Of a stretch of 64,000 nucleotides of DNA, positions 3,703 through 58,204 are shown in pieces. The first letter of the stretch is position 1. Each line of letters opens with the position of its first letter. Below the pieces are notes generated by a model, which worked only from the letters and a program-made list of their open reading frames with translations, was not told the DNA's origin and made no database searches. Position numbers and translations under genes: made by a program. Origin of the DNA: Heliocidaris erythrogramma (taxonomy: Eukaryota > Echinodermata > Echinoidea > Camarodonta > Echinometridae); the NCBI GenBank assembly GCA_025617745.1, contig CM046853.1:60163233-60227232 (forward strand), written 5' to 3'.

Positions 3703-4116
3703 CCTTAAAGGAGAATGAAACCCTGAGGAAAATCAATTTTAATGAAAAGAGAGGATCGAAAGAAGCAATTAAAAAAAAAGTTACATCAAAATCTGTTACG
3801 AAATGAGAAAGTTATGAAAGTTTGAAAAGTCTCACTTTACTTCCTATGGCGATCCTCAAATTGGCAATGTTGCTTTAAAGTGACAGGTTTAGTAGTGCAA
3901 CTCTCCATAATTTTGTACACAAAATTTCATATTTCTCCATTATCTCTCAAGGTGCAGCCTGTCTCCTTGTATTTGACACAACATATGTTGATGTCACAAA
4001 ACGACAAGCAGCATCTTTAGAGATAATGGGCAAAATATACAATTTTGTGTACAAAACATATTGAGAGTTGTACTACTAAACCTGCCATTTTGAAGCAACA
4101 TTGCCAATTTCTCTTG
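3703..4116. mobile_element. MITE with ~93-bp hairpin core
   Basis: It opens with CTTAAAGGAGAATGAAACCC, like the CTTTAAAGG-ended elements at 31837, 36973 and 59404, and has their internal word GAGAAAGTTATGAAAG. A long imperfect inverted repeat, 3858-3950 against 4019-4110, includes AAATTGGCAATGTTGCTT and TTTTGTACACAAAATT in both arms. The transcript would fold into one long hairpin. No ORF is present, as expected for a non-autonomous element. Confidence 0.65.
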
Positions 4117-9721: not shown

Positions 9722-9868
9722 ATCTGGGGAGCATTTCATGAAAGGAAGTTGTCGGATATTTTATCCGACAACTGTTATAAGCTACAGAAATCCTTGCATC
9801 TGATTGGCTGAGAGCAAATTTGTCGGATAAAATATCTGACAAGTCCTTTCATGAAACGCCCCCCAGAT
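9722..9868. mobile_element. 147-bp hairpin MITE, TTTCATGAAA family
   Basis: The ends are inverted repeats of about 47 bp (ATCTGGGGAGCATTTCATGA against ATCTGGGGGGCGTTTCATGA after reverse complement). Each arm contains GTCGGATATTTTATCCGACA or a close variant, which is itself a palindrome. The central word CTGATTGGCTGAGAGCAAAT also occurs in the copy at 39200-39350, and related words occur at 38270-38413. This small family lacks coding capacity. Confidence 0.8.
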
Positions 9869-10732: not shown

Positions 10733-12625
10733 GTCGAGTGACGAATGGTTTGGTGGAAATTTCTAAGTCCTTTTTCTCTAAATGACTTAAAATATACCCC
10801 CACAGAGGTAAATTGTCTCTCCTGCCGAGGTAAAAGCGCTATGATAGAGACGACCGGGCAAGTGAGACGTATAGACACTATAGCAATATCTGAAAAGTGA
10901 AAGTCATACAATCGCTGCAATATGATGTCTAGTCTCGTAATGACTTCTTGACTTGTTGCTTCTCAGGAATGTGCGTTCTCCTTCTCAGACAACACCATTA
11001 TGACTTCATCGTTCATAGCATGAGGCAGTCTGCGAGTGATTAACGTCTATCGCTAGTTCGCCTGCGCACCAACTAATTTATTCCCTGGGTGTTCTTCTCC
11101 TGACGTGCGCGCGTCTAGGACTTCATTTCATTCCGTCTTGAGAGTTTAATTAGTCAATTAGGCAAGGCTTGTTGAAGTCATAGAAGATTGGAAATCATAA
11201 GCTTGGGTTGACAGTAGGTGGCTAGGTGCAGTGTTTTCTTTCAATGCAACTCATCCTCCTCCACGTTGGTATAATAAGGGAGATCCCTACAAAAATTAGA
11301 ATAACATTTACCCATATACTAGTTGCGTTTTCTTGTTTTTATTCCTGCATGACAACTACAACTGCATAGTAGTCGGAATGACAACTATGATACCGTATAT
11401 AAACATTCTGATCACTTGGTGGTCCTGGGCATTTCTTTTTCCGGTTGGGGGATTAGAAATCATAGAAAACCATTTTGCATCGGATGTTACGCCAAATAAA
11501 ACCAAATTCACTTAATTTTACCTTGAACTTGATACCTCAGTGAATCCCAAAACATGCACGAATGAGGATATGAGCTGAAACCATTGCAACCGGTACAGGA
11601 AAACTTGAAATTATAAATAAACAGTTTCCGTAGAGGAAGGGTGTGGGCGCCGGTAGTATAGGGGGCATGTGTTTAACTACACATATCACCATAGTATAAT
11701 GTATGTGGCATATTTCATATGATATATATCATGTTTTATATCTTGTGTATATGAGATAAATCATAAAATCCTGATGTATTTGACAAATTCTTTGTTTGCT
11801 TCTTCGTGCTATAAATTCAGTCATTTTCTATCATGTTTACAAAGCAGCGGCACAGCCACAGTTTTCTTTCGCTCAATTATTGCACACAAATGAAACAAGC
11901 ATTAAATTTCAAGCCTGATATATGTTCCACATCTGAATTATGCATACATGTAACATTTAAAACATCTCAACATCTATTTCGATATACAACGGCACCGATT
12001 GTATGAAATATTATTATCATTTTTCGAATTACGGGGTAAAAAGGATTGTTATACCAGCATGTGATATTATTTCCCCCATTTTCTTAGTTAATGAATTCTG
12101 ACTAATTTCTTACTGTTTAAAAGTAATCATTGATAAACTGTAGTATTCCTTGCCTGGCTGGCCACAAGCGACTGGTTTTAAACCATTTAGCTATGTGCGA
12201 GCGAGCGAAGAGAGTGACTGAAAATAGTATTTAGCTAAAAGGCTGCCGTTGTCTATCAATTTAATTTCTAAATTTTTGGAAAGATGTTGATTGGGTGTTT
12301 ACAGTGAGCTTTTGTTGATGAGAAGTCCGTTAGTTTGCTCTACACTGTATTTTGATTACTTTATTTACATCTATTGGGCTTTATTATCTCGGAAATACGT
12401 TACCAATCACTTGCCCCAGTGTCAGTCTATTCAGAAGGTTTTGCTCTTAATTATACATAATCAGGCCTATTGCTTTGTATGCCCACATATTCAGTGCGAG
12501 GTCGCTTGGTATTTCAGCGGAATCTTAGAGGAATTATTCATACGTAAGTTCTATGACAAAAAAATTCAAATTTATTTGGTGTTCGAGCTGAATCTTCCAG
12601 GAAATTATTTGGCGCATTATTTGGC
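10733..12625. other. Non-coding spacer
   Basis: This is AT-rich sequence with no coding or RNA feature I can support. If the minus-strand exon at 10465-10732 is real, its 5' UTR and promoter would lie here, but I see no clear TATA or initiator element. The first half of the long plus-strand open frame starting at 12291 has no transposase similarity. Confidence 0.4.
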
Positions 12626-12968
12626 ACATTACATCCCATGCCCCTCAACATGGCCCCCAATCCTTTCCACACAGAGATTAGCTCTTTTCTCCATCTCACG
12701 CACAGCCCTGCGAATCATTGGGGAGTGGCCACCACGATCTCCGGATCTGACTTGTTGTGACTTTTTCCTTTGGGGTTATCTCAAGAGCAAAGTGTTCATT
12801 ACCCCTCCACCTGACATTGCAACTCTGAGACAAAGAATCACTGATGAGTTTGAAGCTGTACGCCACCAAGCCCCAATGATTCGCAGGACTGTGCGTGAGA
12901 TGGAGAAAAGAGCTAATCTCTGTGTGGAAAGGATTGGGGGCCATGTTGAGGGGCATGGGATGTAATGT
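12626..12968. repeat. 98-bp inverted duplication of a transposase 3' end
   Basis: Positions 12626-12723 are the reverse complement of 12871-12968 with one mismatch (C/T in CAGCCCTGC versus CAGTCCTGC), separated by a 147-bp loop. The right arm is the normal coding 3' end of a transposase and includes its stop codon; the left arm is an inverted copy. The loop starts exactly where recognisable transposase sequence starts (codons for E-WPPRSPD), so the inverted copy replaced the upstream coding region. Confidence 0.93.
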
Positions 12969-20589: not shown

Positions 20590-23500
20590 CGTTTTTTTCA
20601 ATGCAGGGATTCAAATTGATATCTAACAATAGGGAAAGGAAAAAAGGAGGTGGGGTTGCCTTTTACATTTCAGATAACTTAGTTTTTGATATAAGACACG
20701 AACTAACACACGCGACCGAAGTAATCAAATGTTTATTTATCGAATTAAAAAATCACGGTGACAAAAATATTATTATAGGTGAAGTCTACATGCCTCCCAA
20801 TGCAAACTTTATTGAGTTTATATATATATTATCCAGTCCATATTAGCCTCACCTCTTCTTAATAACAAACCTTGTTTCATCATGGGAGACTTTAACCTAA
20901 ATGTACTTCATTATCATCAGAATTCGAATTGTAGGGACTTCTTAGACATACTACTCTCACATTCATTTATTCTGGCCATCACGAAGCCTACCAGAATTTC
21001 TGATACCTCATCAACCCTCATAGATAACATCTTTACCAATACTAATTCTCCCGTTTTCTCTGGCGTCGTTGTTTCTGACTTATCCGATCATTTCCCTATT
21101 TTTTCCTTTATGTCGAACATCACACAATCATCTCCATCAGGTAATAGTAAACAGAACGGATTTCGAGTGTTATCAGAAGACAACCTCAACAGATTCAGAG
21201 AAAGCCTCTCGTCTATTAACTGGCAACAGGTATACGATATTTAAGATTCCAACTTAGCTTTCGACAAATTTATTGATATATTTACTGAATTGTTTGACAC
21301 CAACATACCCTTACAATGTCCTGCCCGCATAAACTACAAAAAGGTGCCAAGATCTCCTTGGATCTCGAAATCTCTCCTAAGGTCAATAAACAGAAAAAAT
21401 AGACTGTTCTATAAATATAAAGCTAATCCAAACGAAAGAAACAAAAATAGATACACTCATTACCGGAATAATTTAACCACTTTAATCCGCACGGCAAAAA
21501 AACAATATTATTCAAATCAATTCCACATATTCAAGTCAGGCATCAGAAGTACGTGGAAAGTAATCCACAAAGTTTTAAATAAAGAAAATAATAAATCTGA
21601 CTTTAGTAATATTCATGTTGATGGTGAACATATAGATAACCAGACATCCGTGGCCAATGCATTTAATTCCTTTTTTGTAACATAGGCCCTAATCTTGCCC
21701 ATAACATTCCTGAATCCAATATACCATTCCATTCTTTCCTAATGGACAAAATATCACACAGTTTATTTTTTTACCGGTTCACGAAAATGAAGTTATTGAC
21801 ATTGTATGCAATGTAAAGCTAAAAAACAGCTCTGGGTACGATGGTATAACAAATGTTTTATTAAAAAATATCGTTCATGAAATAGTTTCTCCTTTAACCC
21901 ATATTAATCTATCACTAACAAACGGCACTGTCCCCAATAATGAAGACTGCAAAGGTCATACCTATTTTCAAGAAAGGTGACCTACAAGACGTAGGTAATT
22001 ACCGCCCCATATCACTCCTAACAAGCTTCTCAAAGATTCTAGAAAAACTTGTCTATTCTCGCCTTATTACATTTTTAAATAATAATGATGTTCTCTCCGG
22101 GTCCCAATTTGGTTTCCGCAAAAGGCATTCAACTACGCACGCACTTCTGTTATTCATTAATAAAATTGCCAGAGCGATTGACAGTATGTCGCACACTGCA
22201 GGTATTTTCATGGACTTCTCCAAGGCCTTCGATACTATAAATCATGATATATTGTTGCATAAGTTGTCCCACTATGGTATTCGGGGGAAGGCCTTGGAGT
22301 GGTTCAGGAACTACCTTATTGATAGAAAACAATATGTATACATAAATGGTTCCAAATCGACCCTTCAATCAATTACTTGCGGTGTCCCTCAAGGCTCTTT
22401 ACTAGGCCCGCTCCTGTTTATCTTATACATTAACGATCTCCAAAACTCATCTGCAGTCTTATCATTTATCCTTTTTGCCGATGACTCCAATATTTTTTGC
22501 TCTCACCAGAACCCCGATACACGTAAACACTGAATTAAAATGCGTTTCTGAATGGATTCAAGCTAACAAATTGTCGCCTACCAGGTAATATACAAATTAA
22601 CAATAAAAATATTGCCCAGGTTGAATCTACCAAATTTCTGGGTGTTTTTATAGACACTAGACTAACATGGAAGGTTCAAATTGATTGCCTATGTAAACTG
22701 TTATCACGTAATTCAGGTGTAATGAACAAGTTGAAACCTTTTGTACCTGCTCATGTTATGCTTATACTCTATTCTGCCCTGATCTTGCCTTATCTTAATT
22801 ATTATATATTTGCATGGGGAAATTGTTCCATAACCATAATTGACAAAATTAAAGTTGTATAAAAACGGGTTATTAGAATAGTAAATAATGTTGGATTTCG
22901 TGCACATACAAATGAACTTTTCTATAATTGTAACATCCTTAAGATATCTGACTTGTACTTGTATAATCTTGGAATATTTATGTACGAACTCTCGAAAGGT
23001 AATTTACCAGATGCTTTCGTCCCTATTTTTCAACGCAATAATGCTGTACATTCCTATCCAACTAGGCAAACAAAACAATCACCTTTACTGGACCCAAATT
23101 CTGGAACAGCCTGAATAACGAACTAGTTGATAGCCCCTCCAACAATTCTTTTAAACGGAAGCTAAGGTGTTACCTCTCAAGTAAGTACATGTATGTATGA
23201 ATATTCATATCTTGTTGGATCGTACAGGTGGTCACATAGCCTTTGCTTGTGTAACACCGTCATGTCTTTACAATTTTTTTCTTCTCCTTTCTTCTTTTGC
23301 TTTTCTTCATTTTCTCTTTTTCTTTTCTTCATCTTATTTTTGTTTCTTTACTCCATATTCTGAGCTTTGCTCTCCGTGTACGTTTTACAAATCTGATATT
23401 TCTAGTCCGTCCCCCCTTTTCATTGCATCCAAATCAGAATTACTTTATACGGGAGCCTAATCATTTACAAGCAATGCTTTTTATTTAGGCTCCCCACATT

Positions 23501-24414: not shown

Positions 24415-25755
24415 TAAAATGATTTTTGATGAAGAGTTGTTTAAAAAGAATATTTACCTAGTCGATCACATTCTTGAGAGAGAACAGGTGAAAACAATAA
24501 ATTATTTTCATAGACTGGGCTTGAGTGCTGAAAATATTATGGAAATTTGGAAGTGATGTCGTTTTGAAAAGCGAAAAATATAAACGGAACTTCCAGGACT
24601 TATGCTCAAATGACGTAGACAATTATAATATTTCTTTGAAGATTTTTGGAAAAGTTATTTTACTGAATGATGTACCATCTAGAATTAGGTTTACGAAAAC
24701 TTTGTGACAAATCTCCAGCACCTGTATACTTTACGAATAAAAGATGATCACAACCATTTTGATTTTTCAGAAAAAGAAATTTCACAAATATTCATAAGAC
24801 TTAGAACTACAACAATTTTACCGAAAGTCAGGGAATTTCAGTATAAATTACTCCATGGTGCAATATACACCAATGAACATCTTTTCAAATTTGGGTTTGT
24901 TGATAACAACTACTGTTCATTCTACAAGCATAAATCGGAATCATACGAACACCTATTTTGGGCTTGTCATGATGTAAAGGCCTTATGGCAAAAAGTTATT
25001 GAAAAACTAGGTTTAGCAAATCTTCGGAAGGCAGAGTGGAAAGAAATACACGTGGGAATTACTGGATCCGACCCTGAAATTAAATTTTGCAATACTGTGA
25101 TTTTCTTAATGAAATATATTATTTTTAAGACAAGGTCAGAGGGAAAAGTTCCTACTCAAGAAAGATGTTTTCAAAATTTGTTAGAATATCAAAATGAAGA
25201 AAAAGCAATAGCTATTAAAAGGAATAAGTTAGATTTGTAAGCATTTGTTAAGATGGGAGAGATTGCACCGACATGGCAGGACTGGGGGCGATATCCAGGG
25301 GTAAGGAGAGAGAGAGAGAGAGAGAGGGAGAGAGGGAGAGAGGGAGTTGAAAGAGAGGATTTGTGAATGTGTGTGTAGCGTTGTGTGTCTGTGTGTGTGT
25401 TGCGGCTGTTTTTTGTGTTTTTTAAAGGAGGGTGGGGGTTAGGGGAGGTCAAAGGGGTAGGTTTTTGGTAAAGAAGAAAGATATCACTCAATTTTTTTTT
25501 CTTCTTTTCTCAGATGTTTAACATGTTTAATTCATTGAAATAGTTTTAGTGATGATTAATTGTATTTCTGGTAATGTATTTCAGTGTGTCAAGCCTTATC
25601 TTCTATTGCTCATATGATCATGTAAGTCACTGAAATATTTTAGTTGTGATTTTTATTGTATTTCTGTTATGTAATTCAATGAAAATAATTTTGTAAAAAG
25701 GAAAAAAATCCATGTATTATTGAGTGAAATCAAAATAAAGATCACTGAAAAAAAA
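24415..25755 (+). mobile_element. L1/Tx1-type LINE, C-terminal fragment
   Basis: Open frames 24418-24556 and 24704-25240, joined by frameshifts, encode the C-terminal part of an L1/Tx1-like ORF2. The second contains KVREFQYKLLHGAIYTNEHL and then a zinc-knuckle-like segment NYCSFYKHKSESYEHLFWAC, where the usual CxxC has become C-S-F-Y. The sequence ends near 25750 with AAAATAAAGATCACTG and an A-run. This LINE is a different clade from the CR1/L2-type copies to its left. The catalytic reverse transcriptase core is absent. Confidence 0.8.
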
Positions 25756-31700: not shown

Positions 31701-31836
31701 TATACAGTTAACCTGCTTCAGCAACCACCTGTATAAAAAGACCGTCTGACAACAAAGGCAATAATTTAACTGCATTTCTCATTGAAACCTGTACTAATAA
31801 AAAGAAAACTTTTAGGCTGACATGAAGACTACCTGT

Positions 31837-32390
31837 CTTTAAAGGGAAAGTCCACCCTGATATTAAGTTGGTTTTAAAAGAATCCCCCAAAAAACTAAAC
31901 AAACAGATCAATGAAAGTTCGAGCAAAACCCCCTAAGGAAAATAAGAAAGTTATGAATTTTTGAAGTTGTTACCCATCAAACTCAAAGTGGCAACTTTGT
32001 GATGTATCTTGCGAGCTCCTCTCCCATTTGCTTCATACTCAAAAATTAATAAGTTTCTTTGTTTTTGATGAGAGAATAGATTTGTATCAAACAGGTTTTG
32101 TGTAAAAGCACCAGTAAAATGATAATATGTAGGGTCAGGGTGCATGTATGATAAAATATTTTCTTTAGAGAAAATGGAAATTTATGATTTTTTCAGTACA
32201 GGGCAAATGGGAGAGGAGCTCTTAAGATACGTCACAGATTGCCAATTTGTATTTGATTGATTACACCTCAAAACATTCACAACTTTCTCATTTCTTATTG
32301 GAGTTTACTCAAAATTTCATATATATGTTTCTTTAATTTTTCTGCTTCTTTAAATCAAAGTTGATATTAGGGTGGACTTCTCCTTTAAAG
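31837..32390. mobile_element. MITE, CTTTAAAGG-ended family, copy A
   Basis: The ends are 29-bp inverted repeats: CTTTAAAGGGAAAGTCCACC then CTGATATTA on the left; the right end reads CTTTAAAGGAGAAGTCCACC then CTAATATCA on the opposite strand. The 554-bp element contains AAGAAAGTTATGAATTTTTG and, near the other end, CACAACTTTCTCATTTC, so the inverted similarity extends inward. It has no ORF. Related copies lie at 3703, 36973 and 59404. Confidence 0.85.
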
Positions 32391-32895
32391 ACCACTTTCC
32401 TTGCCCCTCTCGACTCTTGAGTCATATTTATATTTGCAGATTTCTCTATAATCCAATGGTTATTTTTACATAATTCGTATGACTTGGTAATAAGGTCACA
32501 TGCAAAGTATAATAGTGTTAAAACAAACATTTGACACGTTTGAAAGATGATGCTACCTTGAAAACTCCAGTTATGGGAAATGCACTGTGTGTATGTTGAG
32601 GAGTGCAGTTTCTCAATGGAAATGTTCTGTACAGTGAAAGTGAATTTATGATTGTAATGTTGTACATGTGCACATTCCAAGGTGAATCAAACTGAATTTG
32701 TGATAAAGTGACTAATATTTGTAAGTATGCCACAGTGTAAATCTATCCTGTTACAGTATATAAATATGCAATCTCCTTCCTGATTCTGAACAAGCGAGTA
32801 ATATTTCACTCCAAATGTTTCCCATTATTCAGAACATTCTGTGTAATACAAAGTCAGTCCTACGTGCATATGTATTTCATATGTTCCCTACATGT

Positions 32896-33325: not shown

Positions 33326-33777
33326 ATGTCAACAAATGATATCTCAGATTATGCAATTTGCATTTTTATTTACCTGGCATGTTTCATTTTTTGTTCAACA
33401 AGTTTTTCCTAGATGAATAATTTTTTTCCAGGTAATATTTCATCATTGATTGTATTCTATTACATGTGAATTCCAAACAATAGAATCATACCTGTACGTA
33501 TCCAAAATCTATCATGTATAGACAGTACTTTGACCTGCATGCACTTAGGTCATATTGTAAACATCAATTTCTTGTCAAACAAGCATTCTCATTTGAATAT
33601 GTTGTCTGTTGCCATTTCTCGTATTATGTCAAGCAGCCAGGAGCGATGACAAAGGTAAGCCCATTCCACTCCGCCTGTACCTCCACTCGTCATCATTGTA
33701 ATTATTGCATTCCTCACATTCCATACCTCACCTACATGTATATATAATAGCACCATAGAGTGATCATGTGACCCCCA

Positions 33778-34170
33778 CTTATTCATTCATTTATTAATAT
33801 GGTCAGTCCGGAAAAGTTGATTGTAGATAAGGAGGGAGATTTTAATGTAGCACAGATTGCAACATTTTGAGGTTTATAATCTGACACAATTATAGTCATT
33901 TAAATTCTCTTTTTAAATCAAGGCATCAACCCCTTCCATGCCACCAGATTTTTGAGCAATTATCAAAAATGAACTTTAAAGAATTAAACATTAACTTTCA
34001 ATGAGATTTTTCTTGAGCAAACTGGACAAAGATATATTGCATAACTATAGGAATAAGCATTATTTTGAAGGCACTGGTTTCTGTATGAGGAAGAAATTTC
34101 AAGCCATTCTCAGCCTAAACACTCAAATTTTTGGACGGGATTTGCCGCCCACGGCATGGTAGCGGTTAAT
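33778..34170. repeat. Duplicated block, copy 1, with inverted ends
   Basis: Positions 33778-34131 recur at 35127-35499 with few differences. Within this copy, ATCAACCCCTTCCATGCCAC (33929) pairs with GGCATGGTAGCGGTTAATG (to about 34172), so the right portion looks like a ~240-bp inverted-repeat element. The first part (TTATTCATTCATTTATTAAT onward) is outside those ends but shared by both copies. Confidence 0.75.
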
Positions 34171-35126
34171 GTGATAAAAACAGGCTACATTTGTATGATA
34201 ATAAGAGAGAGAGAGAGAGACAGACAGACACAGAGTGAGAGACAGACAGACAGAAATGAGAAATAAAGGGATGGGCGAAATAAAGGGGGGAGGGGGATAA
34301 AGTGAAGGGTGTGAGAAAGGGGCAGGAGGAGGAGGGGGGGGGGGGGGGGGATAGAAAACCTGTTCTTTTGAATATGAAAACGATAATATTAATTCTTTGA
34401 CCTTCGTATCAATTGAAAAGCAGGTTTCTGAAATGTAAGTGGCATGAACCACTTCATTATAGTTTTATCTGTCAAGAGTCAAAGTCTATTATCCTGGAGA
34501 TAAATTGATAGCTGTTTCCTGATTGGAGAAGGAAGGATGCTTATAAATGGCACAATAAAGCTAACGTGCACTTAGGGTATTTCCCCGTAACCGAGATGAA
34601 GGCTGTGGGTACAGGGTATTTCCCTGTATCTTGTGTTGATTCCCTGACATTTAGAAAAGCATGTTCCCGTTTTTTTTGCCCAACCTCAACAATCTTCCCA
34701 TTGGTTTGTAATGGAATAGCAATGGAATAGCAATGTTCCAGCATGTGCATGTTACCCTTGTGTGCCTGCAGTCATTAATATGATAATTCTGATTTAGTGG
34801 TAATCTGTATTGATTTCACTCAGGTGGTGTTTATTTCATTTGCATGTGGAATATATATCCTATCTTAATATATGCTGGTACATGAAATGCCATTGATACT
34901 AAATTCAGCAAAAAATTAAAGAATGTAGCATGCCTCAAAATGACTAGAGGATGTTGTGACAGTATATATTTAGAGAATAAAGTTCTACAGGGAAATTGTT
35001 ACAACTGGTGACAGATATCTGGAAACACCATAGATGAAGCAAGTTAATGAAAATGTTAATTGTAGTTAAACTTCATAGCAAGCAGATCAGTCATATACTA
35101 CCCATGCAGGTACAACAAAATCACAA

Positions 35127-35499
35127 CTTATTCATTCATTTATTAATACGGTCAGTCCGAAAAAGTTGATTGTATAGATAAGGAGGGAGATTTTAATGTA
35201 CATTTAGCACAGATTGCAACATTTTGAGGTTTATAATCTGACACTATCATAGTCATTTAAATTCTCCTTTTAAATCAAGGCATCAACCCCTTCCATGCCA
35301 CCAGATTTTTGAGCAATTATCAAAAATGAACTTTAAAGAATTCAACATTAACTTTCAATGAGATTTTTCTTGAGCTAACTGGACAAAGATATATTGCATA
35401 GCCATAGGAATAAGCATTATGTTGAAGGCACAGGTTTCTGTATGAGGAAGAAATTTCAAGCCATTCTCAGCCTAAACGAAATGTTCAACACTCAAATTT
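35127..35499. repeat. Duplicated block, copy 2
   Basis: This is a near-identical direct copy of 33778-34131, 1.35 kb downstream. It has a 12-bp insertion (GAAATGTTCAAC) before ACTCAAATTT and lacks the right inverted end present in copy 1. The arrangement suggests a local segmental duplication, not two independent transpositions, because sequence outside the inverted ends is shared. Confidence 0.8.
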
Positions 35500-39350: not shown

Positions 39351-39439
39351 TCCTTTTAAATAAAGTATGCTTCATCGAGTAGTTCTAGGTTTTGATAGTT
39401 CAGCATTTCAGAGTACTTCCTTATTGAAATTAATTAAAG

Positions 39440-39575
39440 TGTACCAGTCACTTAAAAAAGTAATTTGTTTACAGCAGCTCTAGAAAGTATAAATCAACCT
39501 CAAAAAACTTTACCTGGCCTTCTATGGGTTAACGGTCAAGGAGTATGAAGAAAAATTGAAGGAAAACATATAACC
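39440..39575 (+). mobile_element. Partial MITE, GTACCAATCACC family
   Basis: AGTGTACCAGTCACTTAAAA, CTAGAAAGTATAAATCAACC and GTCAAGGAGTATGAAGAAA match the left part of the full element at 42520-42852. The right half is missing. Confidence 0.65.
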
Positions 39576-40023
39576 TCCTTATAGTTATGGGTCGTCTGTT
39601 ACTTCCTGGATCATTCCTTACTCTTTCAAGCCTTAAAATATTTCAAACTTATGTTGCATTAAAAAAAAATAAGTATACTGAACTTGCAGCTCTAAACAGA
39701 ATATTACTTTCTGTTTGACAAATGGTAATGCTTATTGTTGTGCATGAAAATTTCAAGAGATATCTCAAATTGCATTATTCAGGTACAACCAGAAGCATTA
39801 CCAATTCATTATGATGGCAATTTCAAGTGCAAGTATGTTATTCTACACCTATCAAATGATCAATCAAAAGCAGAGGACTATATAGAAAGTGAAACTGCAA
39901 TATTTCTGCTCTAATTATGTATTGAAACTGAGTCAGATAGTAAAACCTGAATTAATCACTCGGTTGAAAGGACAACCCTAGATTTTGATATGAATATTCT
40001 GGTATCAATTTTCTTAACTGTAG

Positions 40024-40087: not shown

Positions 40088-42519
40088 GTAAATATCATGG
40101 ATTAATATCTACCAGTATCGATCATCTATAAACTACCGGTAGACAGTATGCTCCATTAGTTTCGTTAATTTGTCTTTCATCCCATTGAATTTTTTGGACA
40201 TAATGACTTTCAAAATTGCCCTATCCATAATTCTTCCTTATGAAGGAATATGATACCATTTTCTCCCCTGACAATACAATTGATGATCTCATCTACAATT
40301 TGTTGATTGGTGATTATACATTTGATAATGTAGCCATTAGTTTTCTGATTGTTGTGAGTGTTCTTCATTATTTTTCATTATATATTCACTTTAATCCCAA
40401 CCAAGTGTGTGTATGATATATGACTTCCAGAATTACATTAACTCATCCCATCTGATACTAATGGTGCATTTATTAGCTTCAATGATATTTGTATGATTAT
40501 TGTCATTTGAAAGTAGTAACTTGTTTTGTTTTGTCTGGTGAAGTCGGCAGAACGAATGATCTTCTTTGTAATCTGTTAATTAATTACACTAACATTACAT
40601 TATTATTTTAATAGTCTCTTAATTCTACCTTTTATTAATTTCCTTTTAGAAAATTGATTGGATTTATGTATTTTTTCTCTCAGATATTCAAAGTTTCTTC
40701 TTCCCTGTCCAACTCTCTCTCTCCCTCTCTCTCTTCCCTAGCTCTTTCTCTCTTATGTAGAAAGTGGATGTTTTGTCTGATCCTGTGTTAGGAGCTACAT
40801 TGTATTTGGTGCACTGGTGTATTAATGAATTCTATAATTTGATTGATTGATTTATTTCTAAATACCATTTTCAGTCCACCCCTCCTCTACCTTGTTCATT
40901 TAGATGTACAATGTAGGTAGTGTTATGAAGATCAGGCCCCTACAGTATATTGCATGACATTATACCAGCTATGATTCAATTACAGTTGTTGATATTAGAA
41001 TGATATTGGTAGTTAATTATTTTAAGCCTTTTTATTTATTTGAAAGATGTGAGGTTATTTTGTAAAGACTTATGTTTGTAAAATAAATTCATTCCTTTAA
41101 TAGCCTTCTGGTTGTGTGAATTATAGCAATATAGGATTTTGAAATTTGAATATAAATGTAAGCAATTTACATAATCTTCATCAAGTTGTATACATGATTT
41201 TCTAGAAGTATACATTTACATATATTACGAAGTCACATTCCTCTAAAGAATTCTGTAGTCTAATTGTGCTGTGGTCTTCTCTCAGCATTCTGTAAATGTT
41301 CCAAGGTGCAGATATACCATTGTATTTGATTTCTTTGTTTATATTAGGAACAAAGCTTCATACAAATCTGAACAAAAAGAGTACTTTTACCACTGAAAAG
41401 TTGGTTTTTCATGTGTAAGTTCACCTTCAACTTATCCATGAACGGTATCAATCACAATATATTATAGACTTTGATTGTGTACAAAGACATTCTACCAGAG
41501 GAAATCGGAACAACCAATTCTAGAACTGCTGTACATATGCTTGTTTGTTGTTAGATAATGAATGGTATTTACCAAATATAATGTGAAATGAAATAAATAT
41601 GTCTGTGCAGACCCAGAAGTCTGTGTTACTATATGAGTTGTCGCCCTTCTAGCTCCAAACAGACAATATTTAAAAAAAAAAATCAAAATTATTATTTAAG
41701 TTAACTGTTGCTTAAATGAGAATAGAAATATATCTTCATTTATGTATATCTTCAGGGCTTCACCTTCTATCACTACTGATATGTCACCATGCTGCCATCT
41801 GTATCATTATGTCTTTGATTGACTTCATTTCATGTTACAAATGACTATGATGTCAATGACTTTGAAACATTTACAAAGTTAGATATCAAAGGGTTATATT
41901 ACCACAAAATCATAAAGAAATAAAATGATTAAGTGCTTAAGGTAGATACAGCCCTACTACCTCTCTAAATTCCATCATTCTATTGGCATGATGCAGGAAG
42001 CTTCCCCTATTGCATTACGTTATTGCTGCACTATAATGTTTAACTCAATGCAAGGCATGGCCAGTCAACTATGAATTCATTTCTAAAGAAGGAGAAATAA
42101 CAGTGCACTGAAATAAAAAAGAAAAACCATAAAAACTCTTTTTTGGTAGTCTTCCATTGTTTGGTTTGCTATGCTTGATGTTCACCTCTAGAAAGGAAGC
42201 AAATAGTTGCCCTCTTCCAAAGTCAGAGTTAAACGGGGGTTGTGAACAGCAGTGTAAACATACACATATATTTTTTCTTCCGGTTTTCCAAATACTTTGC
42301 ATGGTTTAATTGACAGAGTAAATTGTAAGGCCTTAGGGTTTGTAAGCCCTCAGGGTTGCTGTCAATCAACTAATATTAGATGTTAATCATTCATTTAGGC
42401 ATAAAATGTTCATTTTCTATCTCTATACAGTATAGTTTATTCCAGATACTTAGCTGTTTTTATTCACGTTTTAAAACAAGATTACATGTATGAGTGTGTC
42501 TAAACTTCTAACTTCTAAG

Positions 42520-42852
42520 TGTACCAATCACCTGAAAAAATAATTTCTGTACAGCTAGAAAGTATAAAAATCAACCCCAAAGACATTTATTTGGCGGTCT
42601 ATAGGTCAACAGTTGAGGAGTATGAAAGAAATAAAGGAATCATAACATGAAGGTTCGGACTTCGGTTCCACAAGAGCCCCTATCTTGGCGGGTGCGTTGA
42701 GTAGTCTACTCATGAGTTGTTTTTGTAATTAAATGTAATTAAACTTGCGATATCTCTTTATAGAATTCATTTTTGAAGCCCATATTTTGAATATAAGATA
42801 ACGTCATGGAACCTCTGACGTACAGAGCAAAATATTTTTTGGTGATTGGTAC
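42520..42852 (+). mobile_element. MITE, GTACCAATCACC family, complete copy
   Basis: The ends are TGTACCAATCACCTGAAAAA and, at the right, AAATATTTTTTGGTGATTGG then TAC, an inverted pair of about 25 bp. The interior includes TGCGTTGAGTAGTCTACTC and AACGTCATGGAACCTCTGAC, shared with the copies at 3450 and 50882. It has no coding sequence and is about 333 bp long. Confidence 0.8.
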
Positions 42853-50881: not shown

Positions 50882-51217
50882 TTACCAATCACCACAAATA
50901 GGGGTTCTATATTATGTTGCAATATATTGAAATATGAGCTTCAAATGTTGAGAGAGATATTGCAAGTTAACTCCACACCTAATAAACAGTGACTTGTGAG
51001 GAGACTAGTCGATGCACCTGTACGCCCTCGCATAGATCACAATAAGGGCCCGCAAGGAACCGATCTCGGAGATGGGTTCTGCGCTAGGCGGTTTTATGTT
51101 TTCCTGCACTCTCTTCAAACTCCTCAAATGTTAACACATAGAAGGCCAGGTAAAGTTTTTGAAGTTGATTTTATACATTCTAGCCATACACAAATTATTT
51201 TTTCAGGTGATTGGTAC
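50882..51217 (-). mobile_element. MITE, GTACCAATCACC family, reverse copy
   Basis: The left end is TTACCAATCACCACAAATAG and the right end is ATTTTTTCAGGTGATTGGTA then C. The interior contains the reverse of words seen at 42520-42852, such as CACATAGAAGGCCAGGTAAA, and a GC-rich middle near 51010-51090. It has no convincing ORF. Confidence 0.75.
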
Positions 51218-51564
51218 CCTTTAACCTACCAGGAATGATATTTTAAAGAAGATAAGGATATATGTAAGTGTGAATATGCCTGTATAGGTTATGTCCATGC
51301 CTCATTTATTTTTGGCAGCGCAATATTCTGGTATGCTTCAGTTGCCTTTCAGTGGATGATAAAGCAATAAGCCATTTATTGTATCCCCCGGCAGTATGCC
51401 GGAGGATACTTTGGATTCAGCAGCGTTTCGCCGCCGCCGCCGCCGCCGCCGCCGCGTCACATTTCTCGACGAATTTTTTTCAGACTTCCTGTGGACGTGT
51501 ATCTTGGTAAAATCTGGACCCCTATAGTTTCTGGTGATGCTGCCCCCAGTGTTCCGTCTTTTAT

Positions 51565-53114
51565 AGGGTAAAAGGCCATATTTTTGGGGATAGTTTGTGT
51601 GCGCTCTAGCGGTCACATTTCTCAACGGATTTTGTTCAAATTTTGTATGAAGGTGTCTCTTGGTAAAATCTGGAACCCTATAGATTTTGGTCATGCTGCC
51701 CCCAGTGTTCCGTCTTTTATAGGGTCAAAGGTCATATTTTGATAGATGTCTTGTGTGTACTCTTGTGTGCGCTCTGGCGGTCACATTTCTCAACGGATTT
51801 CGTTCAAATTTTGCATGAAGGTGTCTCTTGGTGTAATTTAAAAACGTATAGTGTTTGGTGATGCTGCCACCAGTGTTCCGTCTTTTATAGGGTCAAAGGT
51901 CATACTTCAGGGCATGGCGTGAGTGCACTCTGCAGGCCACATTTCTCAACGGATTTTGTTCAAATTTTGGATGGAGATGTATCTTGGTATAATCGACACA
52001 TGTTTAATTTTTGGTGATGCTGCCCTCGTTGTTCCGTCCTTTATAGGGTCAAAGGTCATTTTTCCATTTCTTGCACTCTTACTTCTGCATTTCTCAACGG
52101 ATTTCGTTCAAATTTTGCATGAAGGTGTCCCTTGGTGTAATCTAAAAATCTGTACTTTTTGGTGATGCTGCCACCAGTGTCCCGTCTTTTATAGGGTCAA
52201 AGGTCATACTTCAAGGGATGGCGTGAGTTCACTCTGCAGGCCACATTTCTTGATGGATTTCTTTCAAATTTTGTATGGAGATGTATCTTGGTATAATCTA
52301 CACATCTTTACTGTTTGGTGATGCTGCCCTCATTGTTCCGTCCTTTATAGGGTCAAAGGTCATTTTTCCATTTCTTGCACTCTTACTTCTGCATTTCTTG
52401 ACGGATTTCGTTCAAATTTCGCATGAAGGTGTCTCTTGGTGTAATCTAAAAACCTATAGTTTTTGGTGATGCTGCCACCAGTGTTCCGTCTTTTATAGGG
52501 TCAAAGGTCATACTTCAGGGCATGGCGTGAGTGCACTCTGCACGCCACATTTCTTGATGGATTTCTTTCAAATTTTGTATGGAGATGTATCTTGGTATAA
52601 TCTACACATCTTTACTGTTTGGTGATGCTGCCCTCATTGTTCCGTCCTTTATAGGGTCAAAGCTCATTTGTCCCTTTTGTGCACTCTTACTTCTGCATTT
52701 CTTGACGGATTTCATTCAAATTTTGTATGGAGATGTATCTTGGTATAATCTACACATATTTAATTTTTGGTGATGCTGCCCTCATTGTTCCATCCTTTAT
52801 AGGGTCAAAGGTCATTTTTCCATTTCTTGCACTCTTCTGCATTTCTTGACGGATTTCGTTCAAATTTTGCATGATGGTGTCTCTTGGTGTAATCTAAAAA
52901 CCTATAGTATTTGGTGATGCTGCCACCAGTGTTCCGTCTTTTATAGGGTCAAAGGTCATACTTCAGGGCATGGCGTGAGTGCACTCTGCAGGCCACATTT
53001 CTTGATGGATTTCTTTCAAATTTTGTATGGAGATGTATCTTGGTATAATCTACACATCTTTACTGTTTGGTGATGCTGCCCTCATTGTTCCGTCCTTTAT
53101 AAGGTCTCTCAACA
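51565..53114 (+). repeat. ~150-bp tandem repeat with 304-bp dimeric unit
   Basis: Each unit contains GGTGATGCTGCC, TGTTCCGTC, TTTATAGGGTCAAAGGTCAT and GGATTTCNTTCAAATTTTG. The AGGG of successive units starts at 51565, 51721, 51889, 52045, 52193, 52349, 52497, 52653, 52801 and 52945, with a decayed one at 53101. Spacings are 156, 168, 156, 148, 156, 148, 156, 148, 144 and 156. The alternation of 156 and 148 shows a 304-bp dimer. One type has CTCATTGTTCCGTCC and the other CCACCAGTGTTCCGTC. The repeated 64-codon open frames here are artefacts. Confidence 0.93.
51721..52958 (+). promoter_or_regulatory. Array of DR1-like AGGGTCAAAGGTCA sites
   Basis: Eight units carry AGGGTCAAAGGTCA exactly (51721, 51889, 52045, 52193, 52349, 52497, 52801, 52945). 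One has AGGGTCAAAGCTCA (52653) and one AGGGTAAAAGGCCA (51565). The sequence is two AGGTCA-type half-sites in direct repeat with one spacer, the known binding pattern of HNF4, RXR heterodimers and COUP-TF. Whether anything binds is unknown; the motif may be conserved only because the satellite is young. Confidence 0.5.
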
Positions 53115-53772
53115 CATTTCTTTCAAATTTTATATGAAGATGTGTCTTAGTGAAACCTACACATCTAATTTCTACACCATCCTTTTGTTTGAGGGAGGGG
53201 ATGGGGGAGGGTCTTTGTCCCTCCTTCAAATCGCTGCCAGTGCCGGGGGATACATTTAGCATTGCGCGGCCCCAGCAATGCACATTTCTAGTTGTGCTAG
53301 AAATGCACTGTTATTTTCAAAAGTGCAGGGTTCATTTATAGACTGTACACTCTAACCCCCCCTCCTCTAAATACAACCTGTATAGTGTTGCATCCAGTAT
53401 GTTAAAAGTGTTAATATACCATTTGAAAATGCTATCACTCCTCGGCCCCTTTAATATGGTGATTTAGCTCTAATACTTTTTAGAGTGTATAGATATTTGC
53501 ACCTTTCCAGCAATATTAGGCCTTTACTTTCTTATTCAGCACATATACTGGTATTCAGATTTATGTATGTGTGTTCCAAGTGACTAGTTTGACTAAACTT
53601 AAAGTATGTTCAGAAGTGTAAGTTGGATACAATCTGGTTTGCTGAACCAATGTTCTTTGATGAATTTTTATCTCCTAATTAAGCCAGTTGTTCATACACA
53701 AATATCCAAAAGTCAAATTACATTTATAGTTTTCTAACCCAAACCTACATACAGTATATATGAGGGCTATAT

Positions 53773-56442: not shown

Positions 56443-56689
56443 TAGATGATTACCGGTACTGGTAATTTAAAGAGTGGAGGTGATGGGTTTCTGTCTATTT
56501 TACTCAATATTAATCTTGACATCATATGGCCTATTAAAGTGTGGTCCCATTTGATAGGTCATAATGAAGATAACTAACTAAAATTATTCCAGAATCGGTC
56601 TCCTGCAGTTTATGTGGAAAAGGTATTGGATATGCCACTGACGTGAGAAATTTGGTGCTGAAGGCTCATTGGTATAACCCTTGTAAAAA

Positions 56690-56817
56690 AGTACCATAGT
56701 ACCCATGGTAATTTGACTAAATTAACATCAAATCATGCAGAGTACTAGACCAAATTACCATGATTTGATGGTAATTTGGTCAAATTACTGTCAAATTACC
56801 ATGGATACTATGGTACT
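56690..56817. repeat. Nested double hairpin
   Basis: The outer arms 56690-56716 and 56791-56817 (AGTACCATAGTACCCATGGT then AATTTGA) match over 27 bp with one mismatch. Between them a second perfect 14-bp inverted pair (GACCAAATTACCAT, 56748-56761 and 56768-56781) has a 6-nt loop. The outer and inner arms share TTACCAT/ATGGTAA words, so the inner pair may be a duplicate of part of the outer one. It is probably a small MITE. Confidence 0.85.
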
Positions 56818-58204
56818 TTCTGTTCTGTAGCACTTATTTTATCATATTGGTGGCATATTCAATTCGTTTTTCACAGAAACTTAAGGAGGCCTGTTTGGGA
56901 ATGGTGTATATTCTTAGTTACTGTTACTTTTAGCAGTCAAATGGGCCCACCCCTTTTAAATAGAACATGGTCACTGCCTTTGGACATGTAATTTCAATTA
57001 CAGTTTGTAACTTGTTTCAAATGTGACCTAAAGCTGTTCTCAGTTTTGATAGGGTCGGTGTGCATTCAATACTCAATCATGGGACTATTAAAAGGGACTT
57101 ACATACTGAAATTACATCTTGAAAGAGTGGGTCCATGCTTAAGGTTGGTGACAAGTAGCTCTTGCCTATTTCTTCTATTAATCTATTTACATTTGTTCAT
57201 AACATTGAATCAGAAGAGCTACATGAATTTAAAAGCATGGTGATGGTATCATTATAGAGTGAATAGATATATTTCTTTCCACTTTCATATTTTATTTTTA
57301 AATTGTGCTTGTAAGCTTTATATCACATATTGCTGCAGATATGTTTAGCATTACCAAATCAAAGATAAGGATTGATCGTTGGCAATATAATTCCTTTCAT
57401 GTGTATAAACTTCAAGAGCCTAATTAACATGAACAGATATTTTGAGGATTGAACTATATTAGAAGCAGGGAAGATGGAGAAGGATATTTTGAATAATAAT
57501 TTTCATCTAGCAGGTTCACAGGTGCACATTGCTTTCTAAATGCCGTCTTATACTGGTATTAAAAAAAATAAGTCATCTTTGTTAATATGCTCTGTTATTC
57601 ATAATCTTTTCTACATGTATCATGCTATATCCTATATAAACAATTTTTCTTTAAAAATATCTGTAGAATTGTTCATAATCATGATACTGCACTTAACTGC
57701 TGAAAATAATGTATTATCTTTAAAATATTTTTCACAATTTTTTCACTTTTGAAGTGTGAATTTACTAACTTTGTGAGCTAGAACAAAGAATAATTTCAGG
57801 AGTTTCATTCACATAAAGGAATAGGATTTCTGTCTATCAGATGGGGGAGGGGGTGCCTGCTGCTAATTTTACTTTGCCCCCACTTGGAGAAAAACCGAGC
57901 CAAGCTGTACTCCATCAGAATGAACAGAAGTGCATTAAGTGTAATTTTTCATAGGTGGGGGTCTTTATATCGTACTTTGCTCCTAGGTTATTGAAAAGCT
58001 TGATTATTTGTCATTGTCATCCTTAAAATACTTACGACATTATTTGATTAGTTGTCGTGAAGTAATATTTTTCTGAGGTCAAGATGATTTAGTAGCCAGT
58101 TAATTGAAAAGAAGTTTAAATAAATGGCACAAACAACCCTGCTTTTTGCAGATAGTGCATTTTGGTGATTCTGTGAGATGCATTCCGTATGGAATTCAGC
58201 ATTT

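Follow-up and report, generated by a model that had tools for sequence, protein, structure and literature searches.

Does the recurrence of a nuclear-receptor DR1 word in most units of a tandem array from the sea urchin Heliocidaris erythrogramma reflect selection for receptor binding, or only the way in which the array grew? The array lies in a stretch of 64,000 nucleotides (the window; contig CM046853.1 of assembly GCA_025617745.1, positions 60,163,233 to 60,227,232), and all positions below are those of the window. DR1-type sites are bound by HNF4, RXR, COUP-TF and others. Exact copies of the word AGGGTCAAAGGTCA are found at eight positions (51721, 51889, 52045, 52193, 52349, 52497, 52801 and 52945), and two further copies carry one mismatch (AGGGTCAAAGCTCA, at 52653) and two mismatches (AGGGTAAAAGGCCA, at 51565), all ten being on the + strand. 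The steps from motif to motif are 156, 168, 156, 148, 156, 148, 156, 148 and 144 bp. These counts, the single strand and the 144-168 bp spacing are as described in the original prediction, which also classed the word correctly as a DR1: the eight exact copies (GGGTCAAAGGTCA) read GGGTCA-A-AGGTCA, two half-sites in the same orientation separated by a single base, in agreement with the consensus RGGTCA-N-RGGTCA. With up to three mismatches to AGGGTCAAAGGTCA allowed on both strands, the whole window holds 16 matches, compared with a mean of 5.46 and a maximum of 12 in 100 shuffles. In a shuffled unit the chance of a DR1 is 0.0003, and that of any listed DR, IR or ER pairing of RGKTCA is 0.0036. 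The DR1 word of the ancestral unit is somewhat unusual, and its eightfold repetition adds nothing to that.

Tandem Repeats Finder describes the array as 10.7 copies of a 156-bp period (51456-53106) but gives a better score to a 304-bp period present in 4.4 copies (51784-53106). Alignment from a common anchor resolves 11 units (51459-53139), in line with the earlier count of about eleven, at spacings of 156, 168, 156, 148, 156, 148, 156, 148, 144 and 156 bp. A search of the window with a unit profile returned 11 units and a partial twelfth (Table 1), and no unit elsewhere in the window scored better than E = 1. The eleventh unit is cut just inside the DR1 word (TTTATAAGGTC), after which the next unit begins. 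The 11 units that reach the DR1 place thus comprise eight with the exact word, two altered within the half-sites and one that is truncated.

Nine of these 11 units are of two types, A and B, which largely alternate as dimers. Units u3-u4, u5-u6 and u7-u8 form three A/B dimers that are 92-94% alike and are followed by B, A and B; the pair u10-u11 is only 82-87% like the other dimers, and u11 is truncated. Over their homologous parts some units are near-copies (u6 and u8, 99%; u7 and u10, 98%). The A and B consensus sequences differ at 18 of 121 columns, and their longest shared run (20) is matched in about half of shuffles. Because most units belong to these two largely alternating types, the eight exact DR1 copies are not independent, and since they are copies of one site we dismissed the idea that eight separate sites had arisen by chance. 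We estimate that separate unit lineages number about four (u1, u2, A and B), and in one of them, u1, both half-sites are changed.

It had also been claimed that the surrounding satellite is less well conserved than the word. On average this is the case, as units u1-u10 differ pairwise by a mean of 0.043 within the 14-mer and of 0.183 elsewhere, yet the 14-mer does not stand out from other places in the unit. Among 120 gap-free 14-mer windows, five have a strictly lower pairwise difference than the motif and four are tied with it (the motif counted among the ties); those with the lowest differences are shifted upstream (TTTATAGGGTCAAA) or located at TTTGGTGATGCTGC. The quietest 14-mer, TTTATAGGGTCAAA, lies 4-5 bases upstream of the DR1 word, and TTTGGTGATGCTGCC, which forms a block of its own 20 bases upstream, is equally constant without containing a receptor word. 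The comparison of the word with its neighbours in the unit alignment, proposed with the original claim as a check on it, therefore speaks mostly against special constraint.

Changes were counted by parsimony on a tree of the units, with 121 columns and ten related units and hence low power in either direction. The columns together hold 66 changes, 25 of them in CpG-containing columns. Three changes fall in the motif, whereas the rate in the other columns would give 8.2 (Poisson 0.036), or 6.0 when CpG-containing columns are set aside (Poisson 0.15). Fewer changes than in the motif are found in 12 of 108 windows, nine of which overlap the motif from upstream and three of which lie in the separate TTTGGTGATGCTGCC block. 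Expressed per column, the 14-mer has 0.21 changes, the six columns before it 0.17, the separate block 0.13 and the columns outside the motif 0.59. In column shuffles the deficit at the pre-named place has a nominal value of 0.067-0.069, and some window as quiet as the motif appears in 0.91. The 20-mer around the motif, TTTATAGGGTCAAAGGTCAT, has three changes, and some 20-mer is equally quiet in 0.19 of shuffles. The changes are carried by u1 and u8; dropping either one alone brings the value at the named place to 0.03, and dropping both brings it to 0.005, with an unchanged run of 20 bases (0.018). Variation in the DR1 word is below the average of the unit, but to no special degree, within the low power that ten related units provide.

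These results bear directly on the possibility that the array is a receptor platform, in which the DR1 word would be under selection and the array would bind HNF4, RXR, COUP-TF or similar receptors and act as an enhancer, insulator or sink for its gene. Such a platform would be in keeping with a consensus DR1 in eight units on one strand at regular spacing, with the rarity of the word in shuffled units and with the nominally low number of changes at that place, and the human literature documents that repeat-borne HNF4 sites and Alu-borne DR2 RAR sites are bound. Conservation of the word, however, exceeds neither that of neighbouring positions nor the look-elsewhere control. Both changed units are altered in the half-sites themselves and a third unit loses the word by truncation, so that the half-sites are changed or cut off in three of 11 units. 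Moreover, the DR1 copies are largely recent duplicates, and the biology of the element described below is a sufficient cause of their repetition. The conserved receptor platform of the original prediction is thus unsupported, and we consider it very unlikely, although nuclear receptors may bind the word as such.

The sequences on either side of the array indicate a different origin for it. Taken together, they resemble a mobile element of about 1.9 kb that has the array as its core (Table 1). We consider it probable (roughly 0.8) that the tandem repeats make up the central module of a non-autonomous Helentron (HINE, of the DINE-1/Pearl/Cg_HINE kind) and that the DR1 word is a passenger in it.

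Table 1. Predicted parts of the element that contains the array, in window coordinates
Feature	Position	Strand	Basis or remark
Probable 5' terminus, 2-4 bases before the 5' subTIR	51376..51379	+	Position only, by analogy with mite HINEs
5' subterminal inverted repeat (subTIR) TGTATCCCCCGGCA	51380..51393	+	100% complementary to 53241-53254
IR, inverted copy of the 5' subTIR, GCCGGAGGATAC, forming a hairpin with the subTIR	51398..51409	+	Sequence and fold
(CGC)9 microsatellite, set between the left module and the array	51429..51455	+	
Central tandem array with a period of 156 bp (A/B dimer period of 304 bp over 51784-53106)	51456..53106	+	
Degraded partial twelfth unit	53107..53166	+	nhmmer E 2.3e-09
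3' subterminal inverted repeat TGCCGGGGGATACA	53241..53254	+	Exact inverse of the 5' subTIR
3' palindrome GCATTGC-9 nt-GCAATGC	53259..53281	+	Stem of 7, -7 kcal/mol, z -2.2
Second palindrome CATTTCTAG-5 nt-CTAGAAATG, located at the probable 3' end or spanning it	53283..53305	+	Inverted-repeat search and fold

The two subTIRs agree at all 14 bases, and the nearest match to them in the window beyond the element has three mismatches. The IR is 12 bp long with one mismatch and starts four bases past the 14-mer (as a minus-strand match it extends over 51397-51410 with two mismatches in 14). Folded as single-stranded DNA, the left subTIR/IR pair reaches -11.4 kcal/mol (z -5.2), a value that none of 200 shuffles matched; for the right hairpins the advantage over shuffled sequence is only modest (z -1.9 and -2.2, matched by 10 and 8 of 200). 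The left flank of the element is T-rich (CCATTTAT). None of the 17 ORFs that overlap the element (at least 50 aa on the + strand, at least 55 aa on the - strand) has a Pfam domain at E 0.01, which fits the lack of transposase coding that characterises HINEs, and the 144-168 bp units have the length of satellite-like central repeats. No second copy of the element was found in the rest of the window. We also rejected a classical satellite, i.e. a long heterochromatic array, as the array measures 1.65-1.7 kb and has element modules on both sides.

Two features of reading frame were observed in this region. An open frame of 128 codons on the - strand (51338-51724) takes in the first unit, part of the second and also the CGC run, which it reads as poly-Arg, and has no Pfam match. 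Unit lengths of 144, 156 and 168 preserve the frame and a length of 148 breaks it.

The closest structural counterpart is Cg_HINE of the Pacific oyster. In its description (PMC7492417), the left module consists of a 5' subTIR, normally of 11-12 bp, an IR complementary to it (7-12 bp long and 1-12 bp away), and a microsatellite; core repeats with cluster consensus lengths of 138-181 bp follow, and the right module holds a 3' subTIR and a palindrome. Insertion there prefers TT and produces no target duplication (PMC7492417). The element described here matches it in the order and kind of every module, and its unit length, which is close to one nucleosome, falls inside the 138-181 bp range of the oyster core repeats. 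Because all Cg_HINE substructures are present in the same order (subTIR, IR, microsatellite, core, subTIR, palindrome), we file the element as a putative HINE, an assignment made on anatomy and one with which all structural points assessed here agree. The comparison is one of structure rather than of unit sequence, and there are differences: the microsatellite is CGC here but of the GTCY type in several Cg_HINE, and an array of 11 units is long for the kind, the Cg_HINE average being 3.6 per array and the longest 29.3. DINE-1 and HINE-Mo of flies and mites offer a further structural parallel, with 12-15 bp subTIRs, an IR or palindromic subTIR, 3' stem loops or palindromes, T-rich targets and, in some, tandem repeats (PMC4067079). 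Core repeats of about 160 bp in a modular element are likewise reported for Pearl elements (CvA and kin) and for BIV160/Cg170.

The perfect 14-bp inverted repeats that flank the array could instead be the ends of a cut-and-paste TIR MITE with internal tandem repeats, in which TGTATCCCCCGGCA would be the TIR and a 4-5 bp stretch (TTTA/ATTTA) the target duplication. ATTTA does adjoin both ends of the element (51374-51378 and 53254-53258) and can be read as such a duplication, and Pearl was itself first described as a MITE before it was re-filed as a Helentron. On the left, however, the putative duplication is displaced by one base and on the right it shares bases with the repeat, and a TIR MITE predicts neither the hairpin formed by the left IR nor the microsatellite module nor the palindrome that follows the right repeat. 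We therefore regard this classification as unlikely.

The quiet blocks within the units raise another possibility, namely that TTTGGTGATGCTGCC and TTTATAGGGTCAAAGGTCAT act as signals in the maintenance of the array or the recombination of its repeat and that the DR1 word is a by-product of one of them. The blocks carry two changes in 15 columns and three in 20, respectively, compared with the 0.59 per column outside the motif, and each monomer of the related bivalve satellites BIV160 and Cg170 contains two shared, well-conserved motifs, whose role is given as unknown. The forward BIV160 primer matches CTTTTATAGGG at 10 of 11 bases, a match at least equalled by 28 and 15 of 500 shuffles in two tests, and the reverse primer matches GGGTCAAA (at least equalled by 45 and 26 of 500). 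These primer matches, which are the only sequence tie to BIV160, are nevertheless weak and were tried in several ways, and a relation of our unit to BIV160 is a weak lead. The quietness of the 20-mer is within chance among ten related units (0.19 of shuffles), and the published study offers no statistical support for a tie between the BIV160/Cg170 motifs and array junctions. Maintenance signals are in our view an unlikely explanation.

If the element is a HINE, a plausible history of the array can be outlined from what is known of the family. The Rep/helicase of an autonomous Helentron would recognise the subTIRs and the 3' hairpin, and the element, itself apparently coding for no protein, would be copied by rolling-circle replication and inserted into T-rich DNA. 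Its core would have been lengthened by replication slippage or unequal exchange, with duplication of the A/B dimer as the latest step. The DR1 word would already have been present in the ancestral unit, where it was possibly made by a 7-base duplication (GGTCAAA GGTCA), and would have been multiplied along with the unit. The anatomy, the dimer pattern and the lack of special constraint on the DR1 word are the observed part of this explanation. Because the array sits between the modules of an apparent mobile element, repetition of the DR1 word needs no receptor; the observation is real, and its most likely explanation is an ordinary one.

A striking array that looks regulatory can thus arise from ordinary growth of the core of a mobile element. 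Receptor words are known to have been multiplied by mobile repeats in the case of Alu elements with DR2 or HNF4 sites (PMC1785376, PMC3252374), but in those studies the sites are dispersed and their binding was determined by ChIP (for HNF4 also by binding arrays), whereas here they are predicted sites in a tandem array. Similarly, the ISX Helitron of Drosophila miranda is a Helitron-type element that spread a protein-binding word, the MSL recognition element, and its recruitment into a regulatory network is reported (PMC6417741), whereas the word described here is known from sequence alone. It seems highly improbable to us that a HINE family with a consensus DR1 core has spread receptor-site arrays genome-wide, which would place dense HNF4/RXR-type arrays near many genes or create a receptor sink. 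Because the Alu receptor words and the Drosophila Helitron word have already been reported, such a spread would vary a theme already known. Were copies elsewhere bound by receptors, they would form a tandem-array counterpart of the Alu-spread receptor sites and a case for testing the regulatory effects of Helentrons.

We searched several collections for relatives of the element. A distant-mode search of phages with an element of 1875 bases, searches of viral contigs with three patterns and a search of bacterial and archaeal genome contigs with one pattern returned no relatives; these results are no evidence of rarity, because such collections are not expected to hold an animal genome. Rfam gave no match in the whole window at the gathering threshold. 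Open-licence publications retrieved with TTTGGTGATGCTG included none on repeats by title, and those retrieved with GGTCAAAGGTCA together with satellite and repeat included none on this repeat by title. Among the open-licence papers listed on satellites, tandem repeats or Helitrons and nuclear receptors, no title or abstract opening mentions a DR1-bearing Helentron or satellite, and three papers on oyster satellites (PMC8268682, PMC11136912 and PMC7348941) contain neither GGTCA nor TGACC in their main text. A review (PMC12628747) points in general terms to remnants of transposable elements as sources of binding sites.

A single host exon is recognisable in the window; it encodes an SH3 domain on the + strand (about 26.8-27.0 kb) and has GTATGT after it. 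The array, which the original prediction placed inside a large intron, could lie within an intron of this gene. Between 23 and 64 kb, Pfam searches of 122 ORFs on the + strand (at least 50 aa) and 78 on the - strand (at least 55 aa) found only the SH3 exon and a LINE zinc-binding domain. The latter type of domain (zf-RVT) marks a second LINE remnant at 24689-25240, and in the remains of another LINE at 20816-22533 the endonuclease and reverse transcriptase domains are split between different frames or ORFs.

Other repeats are distributed along the window. A minisatellite at 1-2277, cut by the window start, comprises 109 copies of the 21-bp unit CCTAGTCAAAATGAACAGAAT with 93% matches and is open in several frames on both strands. 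An inverted repeat with 98-bp arms that are 99% identical (12626-12723 and 12871-12968) overlaps an ORF on the + strand (12291-12965); this ORF has no Pfam match and includes the stretch SPDLTCCDFFLWGYLK, which we take to be transposase-like. Two direct repeats of about 350 bp (33777-34120 and 35126-35477) are 94.6% identical and 1.0 kb apart, a spacing like that of LTRs, but their ends are ACTTAT...AAAC rather than TG...CA and equal flanks were not seen. Fold-back stretches of 147-558 bp that are 64-82% self-complementary and perhaps MITE-like occur at 3858-4110, 9722-9868, 31835-32392 and 56586-56902. Finally, three copies of a dispersed repeat are located at 39434-39579, 42517-42626 and 51086-51224, one of which ends about 155 bp upstream of the element.
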